This document shows positions 7,327 through 41,051 of a DNA stretch of 64,000 nt, piece by piece; position 1 is the stretch's first letter; each line of letters opens with the position of its first letter. This stretch comes from Anaerosoma tenue. Its GTDB lineage: Bacteria > Actinomycetota > Coriobacteriia > Anaerosomatales > Anaerosomataceae. The notes beneath the pieces were generated by a model, which saw nothing but the letters and a program-made list of their open reading frames with translations, was not told the origin of the DNA and did no database searches. A program made the position numbers and the translations under genes. The stretch covers positions 212,552-276,551 of the forward strand of contig NZ_JALNTY010000002.1 of the NCBI RefSeq assembly GCF_023161965.1. Reading direction: 5' to 3'.

Positions 7327-9348
7327 ATGACGACACACGAACACCACACCGGGAGCGGCTCCCCTTCCGCCCATGATCGCCATGAGGGGCACAGCGCCGC
7401 CATGTTCCGCGACAAGTTCTGGCTGTCGTTCGTGCTTTCGGTGCCAGCGATCGTCTGGTCGGAGATGGTGCAGGACCTCCTCGGCTATACGGCGCCGGAG
7501 TTCCCCGGCTCAGCGTATATCCCCGCGGTCTTTGGCACGATCGTGTTCGTCTACGGCGGCCTCCCCTTCCTGAAGGGCGCGCGGAACGAGCTCGCCGACC
7601 GGCTGCCCGGGATGATGACCCTCATCTCCCTCGCCATCACCGTGGCCTTCGGCTACAGCCTCGCGGTCACGCTCGGCGCGCCGGGGATGGACCTGTGGTG
7701 GGAGCTCGCCACGCTCGTGACGATCATGCTGCTCGGCCACTGGATCGAGATGCGGTCGATCTCGCAGGCCAGCGGCGCGCTCGCCGAACTGGCAAGCCTG
7801 CTGCCGGATGAGGCCGAGAGGATCGGGGCCGACGGGTCCGCCGAGCACGTGGTGGTCTCGGCGCTTGCCACCGGAGACCTCGTGCTCGTGCGGCCCGGGG
7901 CACGCATACCGGCCGACGGCGAGGTGGCCGAGGGCGAGAGCTCCGTGGACGAATCGATGATCACGGGCGAGTCGCGTCACGTGGACAAGGCGCCGGGTGA
8001 CGCGGTGATCGCGGGAACGGTGAACGGCGCCGGGTCGCTCCGGGTGCGCGTGACGCATACGGGCGAGGAGACGGCGCTCGCGGGCATCATGCGGCTCGTG
8101 GCCGGCGCACAGGCGTCGCGCTCACGGGTGCAGGATCTCGCCGACCGTGCGGCGCGTCTGCTCACGTTCGTGGCGATCGGCTCGGCCACGCTCACGGCGA
8201 TCGGCTGGTGGATCGCCGGCGCCGAGTGGTCGTACATCGTGGAGCGCGTGGTGACGGTGCTCGTGATCGCGTGTCCGCACGCGCTGGGGCTGGCGATCCC
8301 GCTCGTGGTGGCGATCTCCACCACGCTCGGCGCGCGTAACGGGCTCCTGGTGCGCGAACGCCGTGGGCTGGAGACGGCACGGCTGCTCGACCTCGTGGTC
8401 TTCGACAAGACCGGCACGCTCACGCTGGCCGAGCACCGCGTGGTGCGCTCCGCGGCGCTGTCGGGCTTCGATGCGGATGAGGCGACCGCCCTTGCTGGCT
8501 CTGCCGAGTCCGACTCGGAGCACCCGATCGCCCGGGCGCTTGCGGCGGCCGCGGAAGAGGCAGGGCAGGCGGTTCCCGCGGCGAGCGGCTTCGAGTCGCT
8601 GCCGGGCCAGGGCGTTCGGGCTCACGTGGACGGGCGCGACGTGGCCGTGGGCGGACCGGCGCTGCTCGAAGCGCTCGGGCTCGCGGTGCCTGCAGGGCTC
8701 GAGGGCGCCGCAGGCGAAGCGCGCGATGCGGGCCTCACAGCGACCTACCTCGTGGTCGACGGCACAGTGACCGCGGTCTTCGCCGTCGGCGACGCGGTGC
8801 GGCCAGAGTCTGCCGAAGCGGTGAAGCGCTTACACGCCATGGGCATCGAGAGCGCCGTCCTCACGGGTGATGCGCAACAGGTGGCCAATGCGGTGGCCGC
8901 CGAACTCGGCATCGAGCGCGTGCTTGCCGAGGTGCTGCCGGCCGACAAGGCCCGAACGATCGAGGATCTGCAAGCCGAGGGCAGGCGCGTGGCGATGGTC
9001 GGGGACGGCGTGAACGACGCCGCCGCCCTCGCGACCGCGGATGTGGGCATCGCGATCGGCGCGGGTACCGAGGTGGCGATCGAGGCGGGCGACATCGTGC
9101 TCGTGCGGTCCGATCCCCGGGACGTGGCCTCGATCGTGTCGCTCTCGCGCGCAACGTACCGGAAGATGGTGCAGAACCTCTGGTGGGCGGCCGGCTACAA
9201 CATCATCGCGATCCCCCTGGCCGCGGGTGTGCTCGCCTGGGCCGGCATCACGCTCTCGCCGGCGGTGGGCGCAGTGCTGATGAGCGCGAGCACGGTGATC
9301 GTGGCCGCCAATGCGCAGTTGTTGAGGCGGTGGCGGCCGGAGGCGTGA
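7327..9348 (+). CDS. copB: CopB-type (P1B-3) copper-translocating P-type ATPase
   Basis: 673 residues. A His-rich N-terminus (HEHHTG, HDRHEGH in the first 22 residues) replaces the CxxC metal-binding domains of CopA. The membrane metal site is CPH (316-318, in IACPHALGLAIP), the P1B-3 signature. The actuator motif TGES, phosphorylation motif DKTGTLT (D360), the HP dipeptide in EHPIAR, and GDGVNDAAAL are all present, so the pump should be active. Family knowledge: P1B-3 ATPases export copper (Cu+ or Cu2+). GGAGG lies upstream of the ATG. No copper chaperone or CopY/CsoR-type gene is adjacent, and I found no recognisable copper operator in 7045-7326. Silver is another possible substrate. Confidence 0.92.
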   Translation: MTTHEHHTGSGSPSAHDRHEGHSAAMFRDKFWLSFVLSVPAIVWSEMVQDLLGYTAPEFPGSAYIPAVFGTIVFVYGGLPFLKGARNELADRLPGMMTLISLAITVAFGYSLAVTLGAPGMDLWWELATLVTIMLLGHWIEMRSISQASGALAELASLLPDEAERIGADGSAEHVVVSALATGDLVLVRPGARIPADGEVAEGESSVDESMITGESRHVDKAPGDAVIAGTVNGAGSLRVRVTHTGEETALAGIMRLVAGAQASRSRVQDLADRAARLLTFVAIGSATLTAIGWWIAGAEWSYIVERVVTVLVIACPHALGLAIPLVVAISTTLGARNGLLVRERRGLETARLLDLVVFDKTGTLTLAEHRVVRSAALSGFDADEATALAGSAESDSEHPIARALAAAAEEAGQAVPAASGFESLPGQGVRAHVDGRDVAVGGPALLEALGLAVPAGLEGAAGEARDAGLTATYLVVDGTVTAVFAVGDAVRPESAEAVKRLHAMGIESAVLTGDAQQVANAVAAELGIERVLAEVLPADKARTIEDLQAEGRRVAMVGDGVNDAAALATADVGIAIGAGTEVAIEAGDIVLVRSDPRDVASIVSLSRATYRKMVQNLWWAAGYNIIAIPLAAGVLAWAGITLSPAVGAVLMSASTVIVAANAQLLRRWRPEA

Positions 9349-9374
9349 GAGGGCGGTGAGGTTGTCGGACATCA

Positions 9375-9413
9375 ATATCACCTCTGTGATATCTATAACG
9401 CTTTCGTTATAAT
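9375..9413 (+). promoter_or_regulatory. promoter with two tandem palindromic operators, probably leaderless
   Basis: ATATCAC-ctct-GTGATAT (9375-9392) and TATAACG-cttt-CGTTATA (9394-9411) are two 7-bp inverted repeats with identical 4-nt spacing. A perfect -10 box TATAAT (9408-9413) overlaps the second. The ATG at 9420 is six bases after the -10, and no SD is present, so transcription should start at or beside the start codon. Confidence 0.8.
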
Positions 9414-9419
9414 CGCAGC

Positions 9420-10004
9420 ATGACAAGCTTGTCTGACATCGGCCCACTACTGGTAGAGACGCGGAGAGCCCTCGGCATCACGCAAGCCGAACTCGGCCAG
9501 CGCCTTGGTGTGTCGCAGCCTCAGGTGACCCGCTGGGAGACTGCCAAGTACCGTAACGTCTCGCTCGAACGCGTGAGCGCGGTCGCGCAGGTACTCGGTG
9601 TGGGGTCGCCGACACCGTTGCCACTCGCAGCCGAGGCGCCCGCCACCTACGAAACCACGCTCCCCGGAGCCGATGCTGACGCGCTCCGCGCACTTGCGCG
9701 AACCCGCGCCCCGGCTGATGCTGTCGCGGCATTCGCCCGGTCGCACGGTATCGAGCGTCTCGAGTTGTTCGGGTCGGTGCTCACGTCTGCGTTCGGGCCT
9801 GAGAGTGACGTGGACGTGCTCGCGACCTACGCCTCCGACCGAGTACCTTCGCTCCTCGAGCTCGCCGACCATGAGACGGAGCTCGCCGCAATCCTCAGGC
9901 GTCCGGTCGACCTGATCACACGCCCGGGCATCGAGCGCAGCGAGAACCCCCGCCGGCGCTCCCGGATACTGAACAGCGTACGGACGCTCTATGCGCGACC
10001 CTGA
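9420..10004 (+). CDS. XRE helix-turn-helix plus MNT nucleotidyltransferase antitoxin
   Basis: 194 residues. Residues ~10-60 form an XRE-type helix-turn-helix (RRALGITQAELGQRLGVSQ, VTRWETAKYRNVSLERV). After a linker, residues ~105-180 form a minimal nucleotidyltransferase with LFGSVLTSAFGPESDVDVL, which supplies the GS and DxD motifs. In HEPN-MNT systems the MNT protein neutralises the HEPN toxin by AMPylating it (established for MntA-HepT). The HTH domain probably lets this protein repress its own promoter through the two palindromes just upstream. The partner toxin gene overlaps by 14 bp but is broken, so this may be an orphan antitoxin. The mRNA looks leaderless. Confidence 0.85.
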   Translation: MTSLSDIGPLLVETRRALGITQAELGQRLGVSQPQVTRWETAKYRNVSLERVSAVAQVLGVGSPTPLPLAAEAPATYETTLPGADADALRALARTRAPADAVAAFARSHGIERLELFGSVLTSAFGPESDVDVLATYASDRVPSLLELADHETELAAILRRPVDLITRPGIERSENPRRRSRILNSVRTLYARP

Positions 10005-10302
10005 GGCATCGTTGATGGATGTCGTGACGTACTCGCGTCGCGCTGTCGACTACCTCGATGGCGTCAGCGCGCAGGGGTTCGCCCTCGACACCGGCGTTCA
10101 GGACCAGGTCATCCGGTGCCTCACGGTGATCGGCGAGGCAGCACGATGCCGGAGCGTTCAGCCCGAACGTGCTCAACATCCCGATGTAGGGCGCGCGGCA
10201 AACGGCCACCTCGTGGCGCGCCCTTCTCGGTGCGCTCTTTCGGCCGCCTTGCCCATGTCAGACCGGCGGTGTAGGGTAGTGCTACCGTCAGTGCTACTGT
10301 AA
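9991..10302 (+). pseudogene. truncated HEPN (DUF86) toxin gene, C-terminal half lost
   Basis: The first ~50 residues match the DUF86 HEPN pattern: MRDPEASLMDVVTYSRRAVD, then DQVIRCLTVIGEAAR. After IGEAAR (about 10146) the similarity stops and the open frame runs through low-quality sequence to 10302. The region that should hold the RNase motif (RNxxxH) is missing. In another frame, bases 10145-10189 encode AGAFSPNVLNIPM followed by TAG, with GC-rich third positions and a hairpin beginning in the stop codon. That looks like the tail of a different gene. A deletion joining two genes is the simplest reading. The product should be inactive. Confidence 0.75.
10188..10224 (+). terminator. hairpin at the deletion scar of the HEPN gene
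   Basis: AGGGCGCGC (10188-10196) pairs with GCGCGCCCT (10216-10224), a 9-bp perfect stem with a 19-nt loop. It begins inside the TAG that ends the out-of-frame coding tail, as expected for a terminator of the lost gene. Confidence 0.6.
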
Positions 10303-36618: not shown

Positions 36619-37005
36619 ATGAACTGGTATGCGGAGCTCGCCAAGCCCACCTGGGCGCCACCGGCGCCGGTCTTCGGCATCGTGTGGAGCATCCTGTACC
36701 CCATCATCATCGTGGCGTACGGCTACGTCATCTACCGCATCGCGCGCGGCGAGTTCCCAGCGGCGCTGCTCGTGCCGATACTTCTGAACGTGGCCTCCAA
36801 CGTGGTCTTCACGCCGATCCAGTTCGGTCTGCGCAATCTCTGGCTTGCCGAGGTCGACATCATCATCGTGCTCGCAACCATCGTCTGGTCGATGATCGCG
36901 ATCTGGCCGCACAGCCGCTGGGCGTCCCTCGCGCTCACCCCCTACCTCGTGTGGGTGACGATCGCAACGGCGCTCCAATCGAGCATCACGTGGTTGAACC
37001 GTTGA
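36619..37005 (+). CDS. TspO/MBR-family membrane protein lacking the first helix
   Basis: 128 residues from the ATG at 36619 with AAGGAG six bases upstream. It opens directly with WYAELAKPTWAPPAPVFGIV, the loop that follows TM1 in TspO proteins. Four hydrophobic helices then follow (WSILYPIIIVAYGYVI, LLVPILLNVASNVVF, VDIIIVLATIVWSMIAI, LTPYLVWVTIATALQ). TspO binds porphyrins and cholesterol-like ligands in other organisms; what it does here is unknown. The stop overlaps the start of arsS, so the genes are probably co-translated. Confidence 0.85.
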   Translation: MNWYAELAKPTWAPPAPVFGIVWSILYPIIIVAYGYVIYRIARGEFPAALLVPILLNVASNVVFTPIQFGLRNLWLAEVDIIIVLATIVWSMIAIWPHSRWASLALTPYLVWVTIATALQSSITWLNR

Positions 37006-37958
37006 GGACCGCTACGGATATCTCCCCGGCCACTCTAGAACGCAGCATCGCTGCGGTACGGCCTGAGGCGCTCTACGCCGAACGGATCGATCTGCTGCAG
37101 GTGAACCTCGGCCGGCGCTGCAACAGCTCGTGCACGCACTGTCACCAGTCATGCTCGCCGTCGTGTACTGAGGCTATGGACGAACCCACGCTGGACGCCG
37201 TATCGCGGATCGCCCGTGAGGTGCGGCCCGCGCTGGTGGACATCACCGGCGGCTCACCGGAGCTCCACCCGGGTCTGCCGGCGCTGGTATCCCGGCTCCG
37301 CTCGGCGGACCTCCGCACCCAGGTGCGCACCAACCTGACGGCGCTCCTCGAGCCGGAGGCCGAGGGCGTCATCGATCACCTCGCCGGGGCGGGCGTCCAG
37401 CTGCTTGCCTCCCTGCCGGCACTCACTGCCGAGGGATACGCCTGCCAGCGAGGCGACCGCTTGCAGACCGCGTTGTCGGTCCTCGAACGTCTGAACGACG
37501 CGGGCTGGGCGCGTTCCGACAACCTTCGTCTCGATCTGTCGGTGGACTCGAGCGGCTACGGCGCCGACTGCTCCGAGTGCGAACTCACCGCCCGGTACCG
37601 CGCCGCCCTGACCGACGACCTCGGCATCCACTTCAACGACCTGGTGCTCATCACCACCATGCCCATCGGTCGCTTCCGGGCCGCTCTGGAGCGGCGCGGC
37701 GAGTACGAGGCCTACCTCAGCGGACTCGCCGAGCGATTCAACCCCGCTACCGTGGCGGGCCTCTCGTGCCGGACAGCGATCGAGATCGCCTGGGACGGAA
37801 CCCTCTCAGACTGCGACTTCAACCTGGCAGCAGGACTGCGCACAGCCGAGGGAGAACCAGCGCACATATCCGAGTTCGACACGGAGCGTCTCGCTCGACG
37901 CCGCATCCGGTTCGCGCCGCACTGCTGGGCGTGCACGGCGGGTGCGGGCTCGGGTTGA
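36990..37958 (+). CDS. arsS: ArsS-like radical SAM protein (arsenosugar biosynthesis)
   Basis: 322 residues if translation starts at GTG 36990; TTG 37002, which overlaps the tspO stop, is an alternative, and neither has a clear SD. The radical SAM cluster is CNSSCTHCHQ (C44, C48, C51), with further cysteines in SCSPSCTE, in the position ArsS proteins use (HCHVxAxPxRxE). Downstream come VDITGGSPEL, a Gly-rich segment, and a C-terminal cysteine-rich region (CSECEL, CRTAIEIAWDG, CDFNLAAGL, HCWACTAGAGSG) like the family's DUF3641 domain. ArsS couples the 5'-deoxyadenosyl group to dimethylarsinous species. arsM is not in the window. Confidence 0.85.
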   Translation: MVEPLRTATDISPATLERSIAAVRPEALYAERIDLLQVNLGRRCNSSCTHCHQSCSPSCTEAMDEPTLDAVSRIAREVRPALVDITGGSPELHPGLPALVSRLRSADLRTQVRTNLTALLEPEAEGVIDHLAGAGVQLLASLPALTAEGYACQRGDRLQTALSVLERLNDAGWARSDNLRLDLSVDSSGYGADCSECELTARYRAALTDDLGIHFNDLVLITTMPIGRFRAALERRGEYEAYLSGLAERFNPATVAGLSCRTAIEIAWDGTLSDCDFNLAAGLRTAEGEPAHISEFDTERLARRRIRFAPHCWACTAGAGSG

Positions 37959-37972
37959 CACGGAACGCTCCT

Positions 37973-39313
37973 GTGACCCGGTCGGGACACACCGTGCGAC
38001 CCCGGCTCATCGTCATGACGCGCAACCCGGCGCTCGGGCGCGTCAAGAGCCGCATAGCCAAGGAGCTCGGCGACGCGACGGCGCTCGCAGTGCACCGCGA
38101 GCTTGCCGAGCACGTTATCAGGCGTGCCCGCGCCATCGAGATCGCTGGCGCAGTCGATCTGGAGATCAGGCTTGCTGATGGCGCCGCCGCTGCCGGCAGA
38201 CGCTGGCTGGGTCGTGGGTTCAGGGTGCGCGCTCAGGGCGAAGGCACACTGGGAGACAGACTCGCGGAAGCCGTGAGAACGGCGATCTCGGAGGGCGCTC
38301 CTGCGGCGATCGCGATCGGCTCGGACTGCCCGGACGTGGGCGGGACGATAGTGCATGCAGCGATTGCCGAGCTCGTCAGGACCCCGCTCGTGCTCGGGCC
38401 GGCCGAGGACGGCGGCTACTATCTTGTAGGCGTGCGCGCGGACGTGGCTGACTCGGTGACGTCCGCGCTGTTCGGAGACATCCCCTGGGGTACGTCGCAG
38501 GTGCTCGCGGTCACGCTGGCACGGCTCTCCGCACTCGGCATGACCCCGGCGCTGCTGCCGACACTCGCCGATGTCGACCGACCGGAGGATGCGCGCCTCT
38601 GGGAGGCCCGACGTCTCGAGGAGCGCACCAGCCGCCCTCGCACGAGCGTGGTCATACCGAGCCTGGACGAGGAGGGGGTCATCGCGCGAGCGGTGCAGAG
38701 CGCCCGCGCATCGGGCGCGCACGAGGTCATCGTCGCCGACGGCGGAAGCGCGGATGCAACAGTGGCACGGGCCGAGGGAGCAGGCGCAACGGTTGTGCGT
38801 ACACCGCGAGGCAGAGCGCAACAGATGAACGCCGGTGCCGCACTGGCATCTGGCGACGTGCTGCTCTTCTTGCACGCCGATACAATGCTCCCTGCAAACG
38901 CATGCGCGCTCATCGCCGATGCGCTCGGCGATCCCCGTGCGGTAGGCGGGGCGTTCGGCTACTCGGCGGGGAGTGCGTCAGACCGGCTCGACCGGCTCAT
39001 CTCGGCGATAGGCCAGCTCCGCTACACGGTGTTCCGCCTACCCTATGGTGACCAGGCGATCTTCGTGCGACGCACCGTGTTCGAGGATCTCGGCGGCTTC
39101 CCGGAGCTGCCCGTGATGGAGGACTACGAGTTCGCGCTCAGGCTCAAGCGGCTCGGTGGCCTGGTTCGCACACCGGGAGCCATCCGCACCTCGACGCGTG
39201 CGTGGCGCGAGCGCGGGCTCCTCGCCGTCACCGTCCGCGACATGGCAACGATCGCAGGCTATCGGCTGGGGGTCGACCCGGCGCGGCTGGCGCGGTGGCG
39301 GAGCGCGATCTGA
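37973..39313 (+). CDS. fused two-domain glycosyltransferase of the arsenosugar type (TIGR04282 + TIGR04283)
   Basis: 446 residues from GTG 37973; GTG 37994 (reading RPRLIVMTRNP) fits the family start better, and neither has a strong SD. The N-terminal ~210 residues (LIVMTRNPALGRVKSRIAKE, IAIGSDCPDVGG, LVLGPAEDGGYYLVG) match the DUF2064/TIGR04282 nucleotidyltransferase-like group. The C-terminal ~220 residues (TSVVIPSLDEEGVIARAVQS, LFLHADTMLP, VMEDYEFALRLKRLGG) are a GT2-fold transferase of the TIGR04283 group. In other genomes these are usually separate genes next to arsS. A fusion argues they act in sequence. Confidence 0.87.
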   Translation: MTRSGHTVRPRLIVMTRNPALGRVKSRIAKELGDATALAVHRELAEHVIRRARAIEIAGAVDLEIRLADGAAAAGRRWLGRGFRVRAQGEGTLGDRLAEAVRTAISEGAPAAIAIGSDCPDVGGTIVHAAIAELVRTPLVLGPAEDGGYYLVGVRADVADSVTSALFGDIPWGTSQVLAVTLARLSALGMTPALLPTLADVDRPEDARLWEARRLEERTSRPRTSVVIPSLDEEGVIARAVQSARASGAHEVIVADGGSADATVARAEGAGATVVRTPRGRAQQMNAGAALASGDVLLFLHADTMLPANACALIADALGDPRAVGGAFGYSAGSASDRLDRLISAIGQLRYTVFRLPYGDQAIFVRRTVFEDLGGFPELPVMEDYEFALRLKRLGGLVRTPGAIRTSTRAWRERGLLAVTVRDMATIAGYRLGVDPARLARWRSAI

Positions 39314-39398: not shown

Positions 39399-41051
39399 GT
39401 GAAACCCGCGATCATCGAAGCATGGGTTGCCGGCCTGTTCCGCAAGCAGCACTGGTTGCCCAACGCCGCCGCCGGTGTCGTGGTGGGTGTTGTGGCCATA
39501 CCGCTCGCGATGGCGTTTGCGATCGCCGCCGGCGCCAAGCCGGAGCAGGGGCTCTACACCGCCATCATCGCGGGGCTCGTGGTGACGCTGTTCGGCGGCA
39601 GCCGCGTTCAGATCGCCGGCCCTACGGGTGCGTTCGCCGTTCTGCTTGCGGGCGTGACCGCGCGTCATGGGATCGGCGGACTCCAGGTGGTGACGCTGCT
39701 CGCCGGCGCGATCCTCGTGATCTTCGGCCTCGCGCGTCTGGGCAGCGTGATCAAGTACATCCCCGAATCGGTCGTGCTGGGTTTCACTGCAGGGATCGCC
39801 GTGGTCATCTGGGTCGGGCAATGGCCCAACTTCTTCGGGCTGCCCACCCCCACGAGCGAGCACTTCGCAGGTAAGGTCATGCAGATGGTCCAAGCGCTCC
39901 CATCGCTCGATCCCGCCACCACGCTCCTCGGGGTCGTCAGCGTGGTCGTGATCGCCCTGTGGCCCAGGATCCCTGCGCTCGGCAAGATCCCGGGCCCGCT
40001 CGTGGCGCTCGTATGTGGCACGGTGTTCGTAGCCCTGGCACACCCCGAGGGCGTCGCCACGATCGGATCGGCGTTCGGCGGTCTGCCGGGTGGCCTGCCA
40101 TCCCCCGGGTTGCCGGACTTCGCCTGGAGCGATGTACCGCAACTCGTACGCCCTGCCTTTGCGATCGCGTTGCTGGGAGCGATCGAATCGCTCCTCTCGG
40201 CAACGGTGGCCGATGGCATGACGGGCACGAAGCACGACTCCAACCAGGAACTCCTCGGCCAGGGAGCCGCCAACATGGCGGCGGCGCTGTTTGGCGGCTT
40301 TGCCGCCACGGGCGCCATAGCGCGTACGGCCACGAACATCCGGCACGGAGGGAACAGCCCGATCGCCGGCGTCTTCCACGTGCTTACGGTGATGCTGGTG
40401 CTGGTGGCGCTCGCACCGCTGGCGGCATACGTGCCGCTCGCCACTCTGGCCGCGATCCTGTTCGTGGTGGCATTCAACATGAGCGAGGTCGGCCGCATCA
40501 TCCGCATCGCGCGACGCGCCCCCCGCTCCGACGTAGCGGTAATGCTCATCACCCTCGTCCTCACGATCTTCGCCGATCTCGTGATTGCCGTGGAGGTGGG
40601 GGTGATCCTGGCGCTGCTGAACTTCTTCCGACGCATGACGGCGGCCGTCGGCGTGACCGAGATGCCGTCCGGGTCCACCCCGGAGGCCGAGACCGTTCCG
40701 GCCTTCAGGGACGTGCTCGTGTTCACGATCGACGGGCCGTTCTTCTTCGGCGCGGTCGACCAGTTCGAGTCGGCCCTCCTCCACACCAACACCGAACCCA
40801 GGGCCGTGATCGTGAGCATGGAGAACGTGCCCTTCATCGATCTCACGGCACTGGCGAGTCTGCAGGAGACCATGGACCGGCTTCGCAAGCATGAGGTAAT
40901 CGTGGCGTTGTGCTGCACGAAGCCGAAAGTGGCCGAGCGCATCGAGAACGCCGGTATCGCCGAGGGGTTGCCGCTTCCCGTGACCGCTTCACTCGAAGAA
41001 GCGCTCCGGACGGTGGGCGAGCGCACCGTCTCCCGCGACGGCCTACGGTAG
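39399..41051 (+). CDS. SulP-family anion transporter with STAS domain
   Basis: 550 residues from GTG 39399, with GAAAGGA upstream. The transmembrane part (about residues 1-430) shows SulP patterns [39 protein letters not shown] and QIAGPTGAF. The C-terminal ~110 residues are a STAS domain ([33 protein letters not shown]), with Thr where many have the regulated Ser. SulP proteins carry sulphate, bicarbonate or dicarboxylates; the substrate is open. A -10-like TAGAAT for rubrerythrin overlaps its stop. Confidence 0.92.

Follow-up and report, generated by a model that had tools for sequence, protein, structure and literature searches.

Predicted selenocysteine in an ArsS-like protein of Anaerosoma tenue and a SECIS-like hairpin at the junction with a fused glycosyltransferase gene

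Genes and neighbours at the TspO–SulP slot

The window, a 64,000-nt stretch of the Anaerosoma tenue genome, holds a TspO-like gene, a gene for an ArsS-family radical SAM protein and a gene for a fused glycosyltransferase, with an anion transporter gene beyond them. Their features are:

36619–37005, + strand: TspO-like gene (128 aa; PF03073, 2.1e-27)
36990–37976, + strand: gene for a predicted ArsS-family radical SAM selenoprotein (TIGR04167 296.4, PF12345 140, PF04055 45.7 bits)
37956–37958, + strand: in-frame UGA, predicted Sec codon (U323), Cys in canonical ArsS
37973–37990, + strand: SECIS-like hairpin, apical part (loop 21 nt after the UGA; fold z-score)
37973–39313, + strand: fused glycosyltransferase gene (446 aa; GTG start overlaps the ArsS stop as GTGA)
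38006–38590, + strand: TIGR04282/DUF2064 domain (CofC-like, GT-A fold; 178.9 bits)
38645–39298, + strand: TIGR04283 glycosyltransferase family 2 domain (212.4 bits)
39399–41051, + strand: SulP/DauA-type anion transporter gene (bounds the variable slot on its other side; given as context)

All three genes are at the positions given in the first-pass annotation and profile matches bear out their identities, but the gene model of ArsS is corrected here: its end lies beyond the first stop codon. From the GTG at 36990 the ArsS frame is uninterrupted to the TGA at 37956–37958. With this start the product is 328 aa long, carries the radical SAM cysteines C44, C48 and C51 and has a DUF3641 domain at its C-terminus; a TTG at 37002 is an alternative start. 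The fused gene most likely begins at the GTG at 37973 and stops at 39313; it could instead start at a TTG at 37955 or a GTG at 37994. The SulP/DauA-type gene scores 496 bits against NF008660, short of the cut-off of 614, and 352.8 bits against TIGR00815.

The TspO-like protein matches PF03073 at 96.1 bits (gathering score 24) and has the W-x-KP-x-W-x-PP signature and the C-terminal P-Y-x-x-W motif of TspO/MBR proteins. However, at 128 aa it has no first transmembrane helix and does not reach the five helices of that family, its alignment beginning at residue 29 or 58 of solved TspO proteins, and its NCBIfam TspO score of 76 bits is below the cut-off of 180. Short TspO genes occur in 27 of the 119 relatives searched, and the form without the first helix recurs in many genomes of the order, its length of 128 aa being conserved. 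The overlap of this gene with arsS, reported in the first-pass annotation, is present in the window but is less firm than it appeared, measuring 4 or 16 nt depending on the ArsS start. In the two nearest relatives (G003 and G016) the TspO stop is closely followed by an ATG for ArsS, the window having ACG at that place, so that no overlap is needed in these genomes.

Comparison of relatives shows what else can lie beside TspO. Two genomes of the same genus without ArsS (G001 and G002) have the order phzF–TspO–SulP; in this genome (G000) and G003 the ArsS–fusion pair lies between TspO and SulP; in G004 and G014 the same slot holds HgcC–ArsM; and in G016 it holds both pairs, with small genes beside them. 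Because occupancy differs among relatives, we regard the slot as variable and TspO as its resident neighbour, probably a bystander that belongs to a conserved phzF–TspO–SulP backbone. It is very unlikely that TspO works together with ArsS, for instance in transport or in sensing oxidative stress. It does lie directly upstream of ArsS in G000, G003 and G016 and beside HgcC–ArsM in G004 and G014, but the common slot explains both arrangements, TspO stays by phzF and SulP in G001 and G002, and in 13 other genomes the ArsS–fusion pair has other neighbours and no adjoining TspO, even though seven of these carry TspO elsewhere. The functional link is thus set aside, and a misleading connection is removed. 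In the slot itself, an HgcC-like AbrB gene directly precedes ArsM at three loci (L154 of G016, 9074–10206; L221; L225). HgcC is an HgcAB-associated protein, and its pairing with ArsM may be of note.

The in-frame UGA and an order-specific ArsS clade

The ArsS frame reaches its first TGA after the tail HCWACTAGAGSG, runs on in frame through five conserved codons (HGTLL) and stops at a second TGA (37974–37976) that overlaps the GTG of the fused gene. Since Cys-bearing ArsS proteins end CTAGAGSSC[GQ]G.., the first TGA sits exactly on the conserved Cys/Sec position, and the window tail CTAGAGSG-U-HGTLL agrees with family tails of the form GSSC[GQ]G... Reading through this codon completes the TIGR04167 profile to 303/303 and raises the score from 287.8 bits, as annotated, to 296.4 bits, which argues that the gene really extends to the second TGA. 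A conserved short tail beyond the Sec TGA, together with the GTGA overlap, is found in most of the 18 members of the clade described below, and the genome encodes selD, selA, selB and tRNA-Sec. With an in-frame UGA aligned to the Cys of homologues, homology downstream of it and SelA, SelB, SelD and tRNA-Sec in the same genome, the window ArsS is very probably a selenoprotein. This is expected rather than new for the family, as TIGR04167 is already among the listed selenoprotein families (PMC9312934, PMC13188914).

We give almost no weight to the alternative that this TGA is a true stop, which would leave ArsS five residues short and the downstream hairpin incidental. UGA normally terminates translation in bacteria, and selenocysteine is predicted here from sequence alone; but the TGA is present in 18/18 clade members with a conserved tail past it, the genome has the selenocysteine machinery, the hairpin has a conserved GGUC loop and changes that preserve its pairs, and the family is a listed one (PMC9312934, PMC13188914). 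The first-pass annotation was right about the identity of arsS and missed both its predicted selenocysteine and the putative placement of the fused gene's start within a SECIS. The selD gene (L242; G000:C4:155460–156377) lies next to selA, selB and tRNA-Sec, has an in-frame TGA of its own and probably encodes a selenoprotein itself.

Profile searches place the radical SAM gene in no other subfamily: TIGR04167 leads by more than 250 bits, although even with the Sec tail the score narrowly misses the curated cut-off of 300 bits, by about 4 bits. By this measure the predicted protein is ArsS-like rather than a certified ArsS. It has the radical SAM and DUF3641 architecture of TIGR04167 proteins, all of their cysteines and the C-terminal Sec/Cys position; the CxxxCxxC motif and the C-terminal Cys/Sec set are kept in 18/18 clade members and in 27/27 other ArsS. 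In a tree of 45 ArsS proteins, however, it falls in an order-specific clade of 18 (support 100/97), all of which carry TGA at the Sec position, whereas the other ArsS of the order carry Cys. These two groups also differ in TIGR04167 score, the Cys types reaching about 367–418 bits and the types with one in-frame TGA 230–304 bits; a Sec-type ArsS of G059, at 351.7 bits, is the exception to this gap. The all-Sec clade varies at about two dozen positions at which the 27 other ArsS compared show little or no variation, among them the M before the C257 column, which is A or S (alignment column numbers; +3 for P0001). This variation and the score 4 bits under the cut-off suggest that the substrate may differ. 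What is marked out is an ArsS clade with UGA in every examined member, tied to one fused transferase. Both forms are found together in G044 and G052, whose ArsS paralogue pairs (L129, L128, L157 and L160) comprise one Cys and one Sec protein; in G052 about 5 kb lie between the Cys-form ArsS and a stand-alone TIGR04283-like gene.

A SECIS-like hairpin across the gene junction

Around the GTGA overlap the RNA is predicted to form a hairpin with a 5' arm, GUGACCC, that holds the GUG start of the fused gene, a GGUC loop (37980–37983) and a 3' arm, GGGACAC, one pair of the window stem being an A–A mismatch. The 42 nt that follow the UGA have a minimum free energy of -13.3 kcal/mol, and the junction fold beats 198 of 200 shuffles (z -2.68). 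Published bacterial SECIS elements are modelled with a loop of 3–9 nt, a G in the first two loop positions, a spacing of 16–37 nt from the UGA and a minimum free energy of -7.5 kcal/mol or lower (PMC13188914); the window hairpin lies within all these limits, with its GGUC loop, 21-nt distance and -13.3 kcal/mol. An Rfam scan of the junction gave no match above threshold and one unrelated sub-threshold match on the other strand.

The hairpin is conserved. All 19 Coriobacteriia-type sequences compared have the GGUC loop, at 21 nt from the UGA in 16 genomes and at 17–20 nt in three more, and all keep 5–7 of the 7 stem pairs, as counted by a script anchored on the loop (an automatic DNA alignment of the SECIS set had misplaced rows). 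In G027, G031, G059 and G112, both sides of the stem have changed in ways that preserve pairing. The constraint extends to the coding sequence. Of the 16 fused genes examined, 15 open with exactly the codons GTG-ACC-CGG-TCG, and variation begins at the fifth codon; the naive synonymous-codon probability of this identity has a log10 of about -22, a figure that does not allow for relatedness. The sixteenth gene, from G027, has AGC CGG TCC and still keeps the stem. Residues 1–6 of the fused protein are predicted by AlphaFold to be disordered, so the protein does not account for this constraint. VTRSG is missing from fused genes without a Sec-ArsS directly upstream (L012, L021–L023), and the Sec-ArsS of G059, which has no fused gene directly downstream, still has the hairpin. 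Taken together, the fixed codons, the disordered N-terminus, the absence of VTRSG elsewhere and the G059 hairpin place the constraint most simply on the RNA, and the predicted GTG start of the fused gene is most simply read as sitting inside the SECIS.

In its apical stem, its G-rich loop and its position 16–37 nt after the UGA the element resembles bacterial SECIS elements of the E. coli fdhF type and the published model (PMC13188914), but here its 5' arm contains the start codon of the following gene, so that it spans an operon junction. We found no account of a SECIS-embedded start, or of a SECIS with translational coupling, in a search of literature available without subscription. One locus in Delongbacteria (L067, 5978–6040), where the fused gene begins about 20 nt after the ArsS Sec TGA inside a weak hairpin, was considered as a second such case and dropped because the fold is weak (-2.6 kcal/mol).

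The codon identity in 15 of the 16 genes points to a possible coupling between selenocysteine decoding and the downstream gene. We infer such coupling of transferase synthesis while recognizing that an overlap of 4 nt between stop and start also arises through ordinary compaction of operons, and that termination at the first UGA, about 15 nt before the GUG, might likewise be followed by a restart at the GUG. A more radical version, in which the SECIS would act as a selenium-dependent gate and expose the start codon solely when ribosomes insert selenocysteine at the UGA, and in which the product would be a glycosylated 5'-deoxyadenosyl compound that does not require arsenic, strikes us as doubtful. 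If it held, the second enzyme would be made only once the first is complete.

The fused transferase and the question of arsenic

Both transferase domains score above cut-off in one gene, the second included: TIGR04282 at 178.9 bits (cut-off 134) over residues 12–206 and TIGR04283 at 212.4 bits (cut-off 182) over residues 225–442 of the same 446-aa frame. The AlphaFold model has two confident domains (mean pLDDT 90.6, pTM 0.88). Its best Foldseek match is 3cgx, a putative nucleotide-diphospho-sugar transferase (E 3.2e-17), which corresponds to the first domain; the CofC-like 2i5e is also listed. WrtF and glucosyl-3-phosphoglycerate synthase (GT2) match by fold and, by sequence profile, match the second domain. 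The protein thus has the domains and family motifs of TIGR04282 and TIGR04283 transferases, but here a single polypeptide carries both.

This fusion is not peculiar to the locus and is not new. A scan of GTDB genomes kept 80 loci, and at 35 of them one open frame encodes both domains; these come from Verrucomicrobia, Planctomycetes, Cyanobacteria, Desulfobacterota, Synergistota and others. A search of literature available without subscription gave no published description of the fusion. A sequencing error was rejected as its origin, the fused frame being intact in many genomes; Burkholderia matches from a plasmid search were two separately annotated genes with identity below 60%. In 18 of 20 genomes with a Sec-ArsS the next gene downstream is the fused one, the surroundings of the pair varying, and direct ArsS–fusion adjacency is found outside the order as well (for example L054, L064 and L067). 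From the fusion, the first-pass annotation had argued for successive action on one intermediate; it is fair to argue from it that both domains serve a single pathway.

The characterised ArsS enzyme acts on methylated arsenic as the acceptor. Neither a PRK11873-type nor an arsenosugar-type ArsM is present in the 99%-complete genome, which has no NF008823 member over cut-off and no NF038099; the candidates were MenG/UbiE and generic methyltransferases and were rejected. The absence of arsM thus holds genome-wide and for both types. NF038099 (AsSugarArsM) is also over cut-off in none of the 71 relatives searched. Within the order Sec-ArsS and ArsM are independent (4/20 against 10/51 over 71 genomes, Fisher p = 1.0). 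Among 41 genomes of other groups, arsenosugar ArsM is present in 6 of 11 with split transferases, mostly within about 2 kb of ArsS, versus 0 of 30 with fused ones (p = 1e-4, without phylogenetic correction). The survey for arsM therefore gave no co-occurrence with the Sec-ArsS clade and, in the tested set, put arsenosugar ArsM with split and never with fused transferases. With the cyanobacterial arsenosugar locus, where AsSugarArsM lies next to ArsS, this genome shares the ArsS family and TIGR04282/04283, but AsSugarArsM is absent here and the transferases are split there. Of the marks of an arsenosugar cluster, TIGR04282 and TIGR04283 are present, and ArsM with ArsS in the genome is not. The label arsenosugar-type is accordingly weakened: the ArsS-like gene and both transferase domains fit it, but the separate all-Sec clade, its relaxed positions and the lack of ArsM do not. 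For fused TIGR04282/04283 genes, the name "arsenosugar biosynthesis" is based on association. At one locus of G059 (L163, 3703–8233) a MerA-like oxidoreductase, a fused transferase, an ArsM-like gene and an opposite-strand Sec-ArsS lie together, and the ArsM-like gene has an in-frame TGA and is similar to ArsM/AhpD-type selenoproteins.

ArsS chemistry is the 5'-deoxyadenosylation of methylated arsenic (PMC12159101), and it is possible for the window ArsS. A complete arsenosugar pathway, in which ArsS would make dimethylarsinoyl adenosine from dimethylarsenite taken up by the cell and the fused enzyme would convert it in two steps to a glyceryl arsenosugar, we consider rather unlikely. The family names and the ArsS chemistry (PMC12159101), the conservation of all radical SAM and C-terminal cysteines, an Acr3 arsenite exporter over cut-off in the genome and the ArsM gene a few genes downstream of the pair in G016 are consistent with it, but the ArsM counts above are not, and about 9 of the 30 fused-gene genomes show no ArsS, most of these being draft assemblies. 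Somewhat more plausible, though still tentative, is that the clade has left arsenic chemistry, adenosylating another nucleophile or organic acceptor for a fused protein that makes an unrelated glycoside. The separate all-Sec clade, the many relaxed canonical invariants, the missing link to ArsM and the fused transferases in genomes without ArsS point this way; the retention of every catalytic and auxiliary cysteine and of many residues of the core, and HgcC–ArsM in the same slot of close relatives and beside the pair in G016, point back towards arsenic.

The reading we prefer, at a probability of roughly 60%, is that an ArsS-type selenoprotein and a fused DUF2064–GT2 transferase form a two-gene module, inserted between resident TspO and SulP genes, with a SECIS at its junction and linked reactions. 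SelB and Sec-tRNA would, with good reason, be expected to read the first ArsS UGA as selenocysteine. As the GUG start is base-paired within the SECIS, ribosomes reading the UGA would open the hairpin, stop at the overlap and restart at the GUG, and transferase synthesis would then track selenium supply. By family, ArsS would place a 5'-deoxyadenosyl group on an acceptor with the help of an Fe–S cluster and SAM. From that product the fused protein would build a glycoside, in which its CofC-like domain may serve for activation and its GT2 domain for the transfer. Since the genome has no ArsM, either the cell would obtain a methylated arsenical from its surroundings or the acceptor is a different compound.

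Collectively, the predicted selenocysteine of ArsS, the order-specific all-Sec clade and the putative SECIS-embedded start are firm additions to the description of this locus. With about 15 to 18 genomes in which the predicted SECIS and a start codon share nucleotides, selenium-controlled translational coupling would be directly testable.
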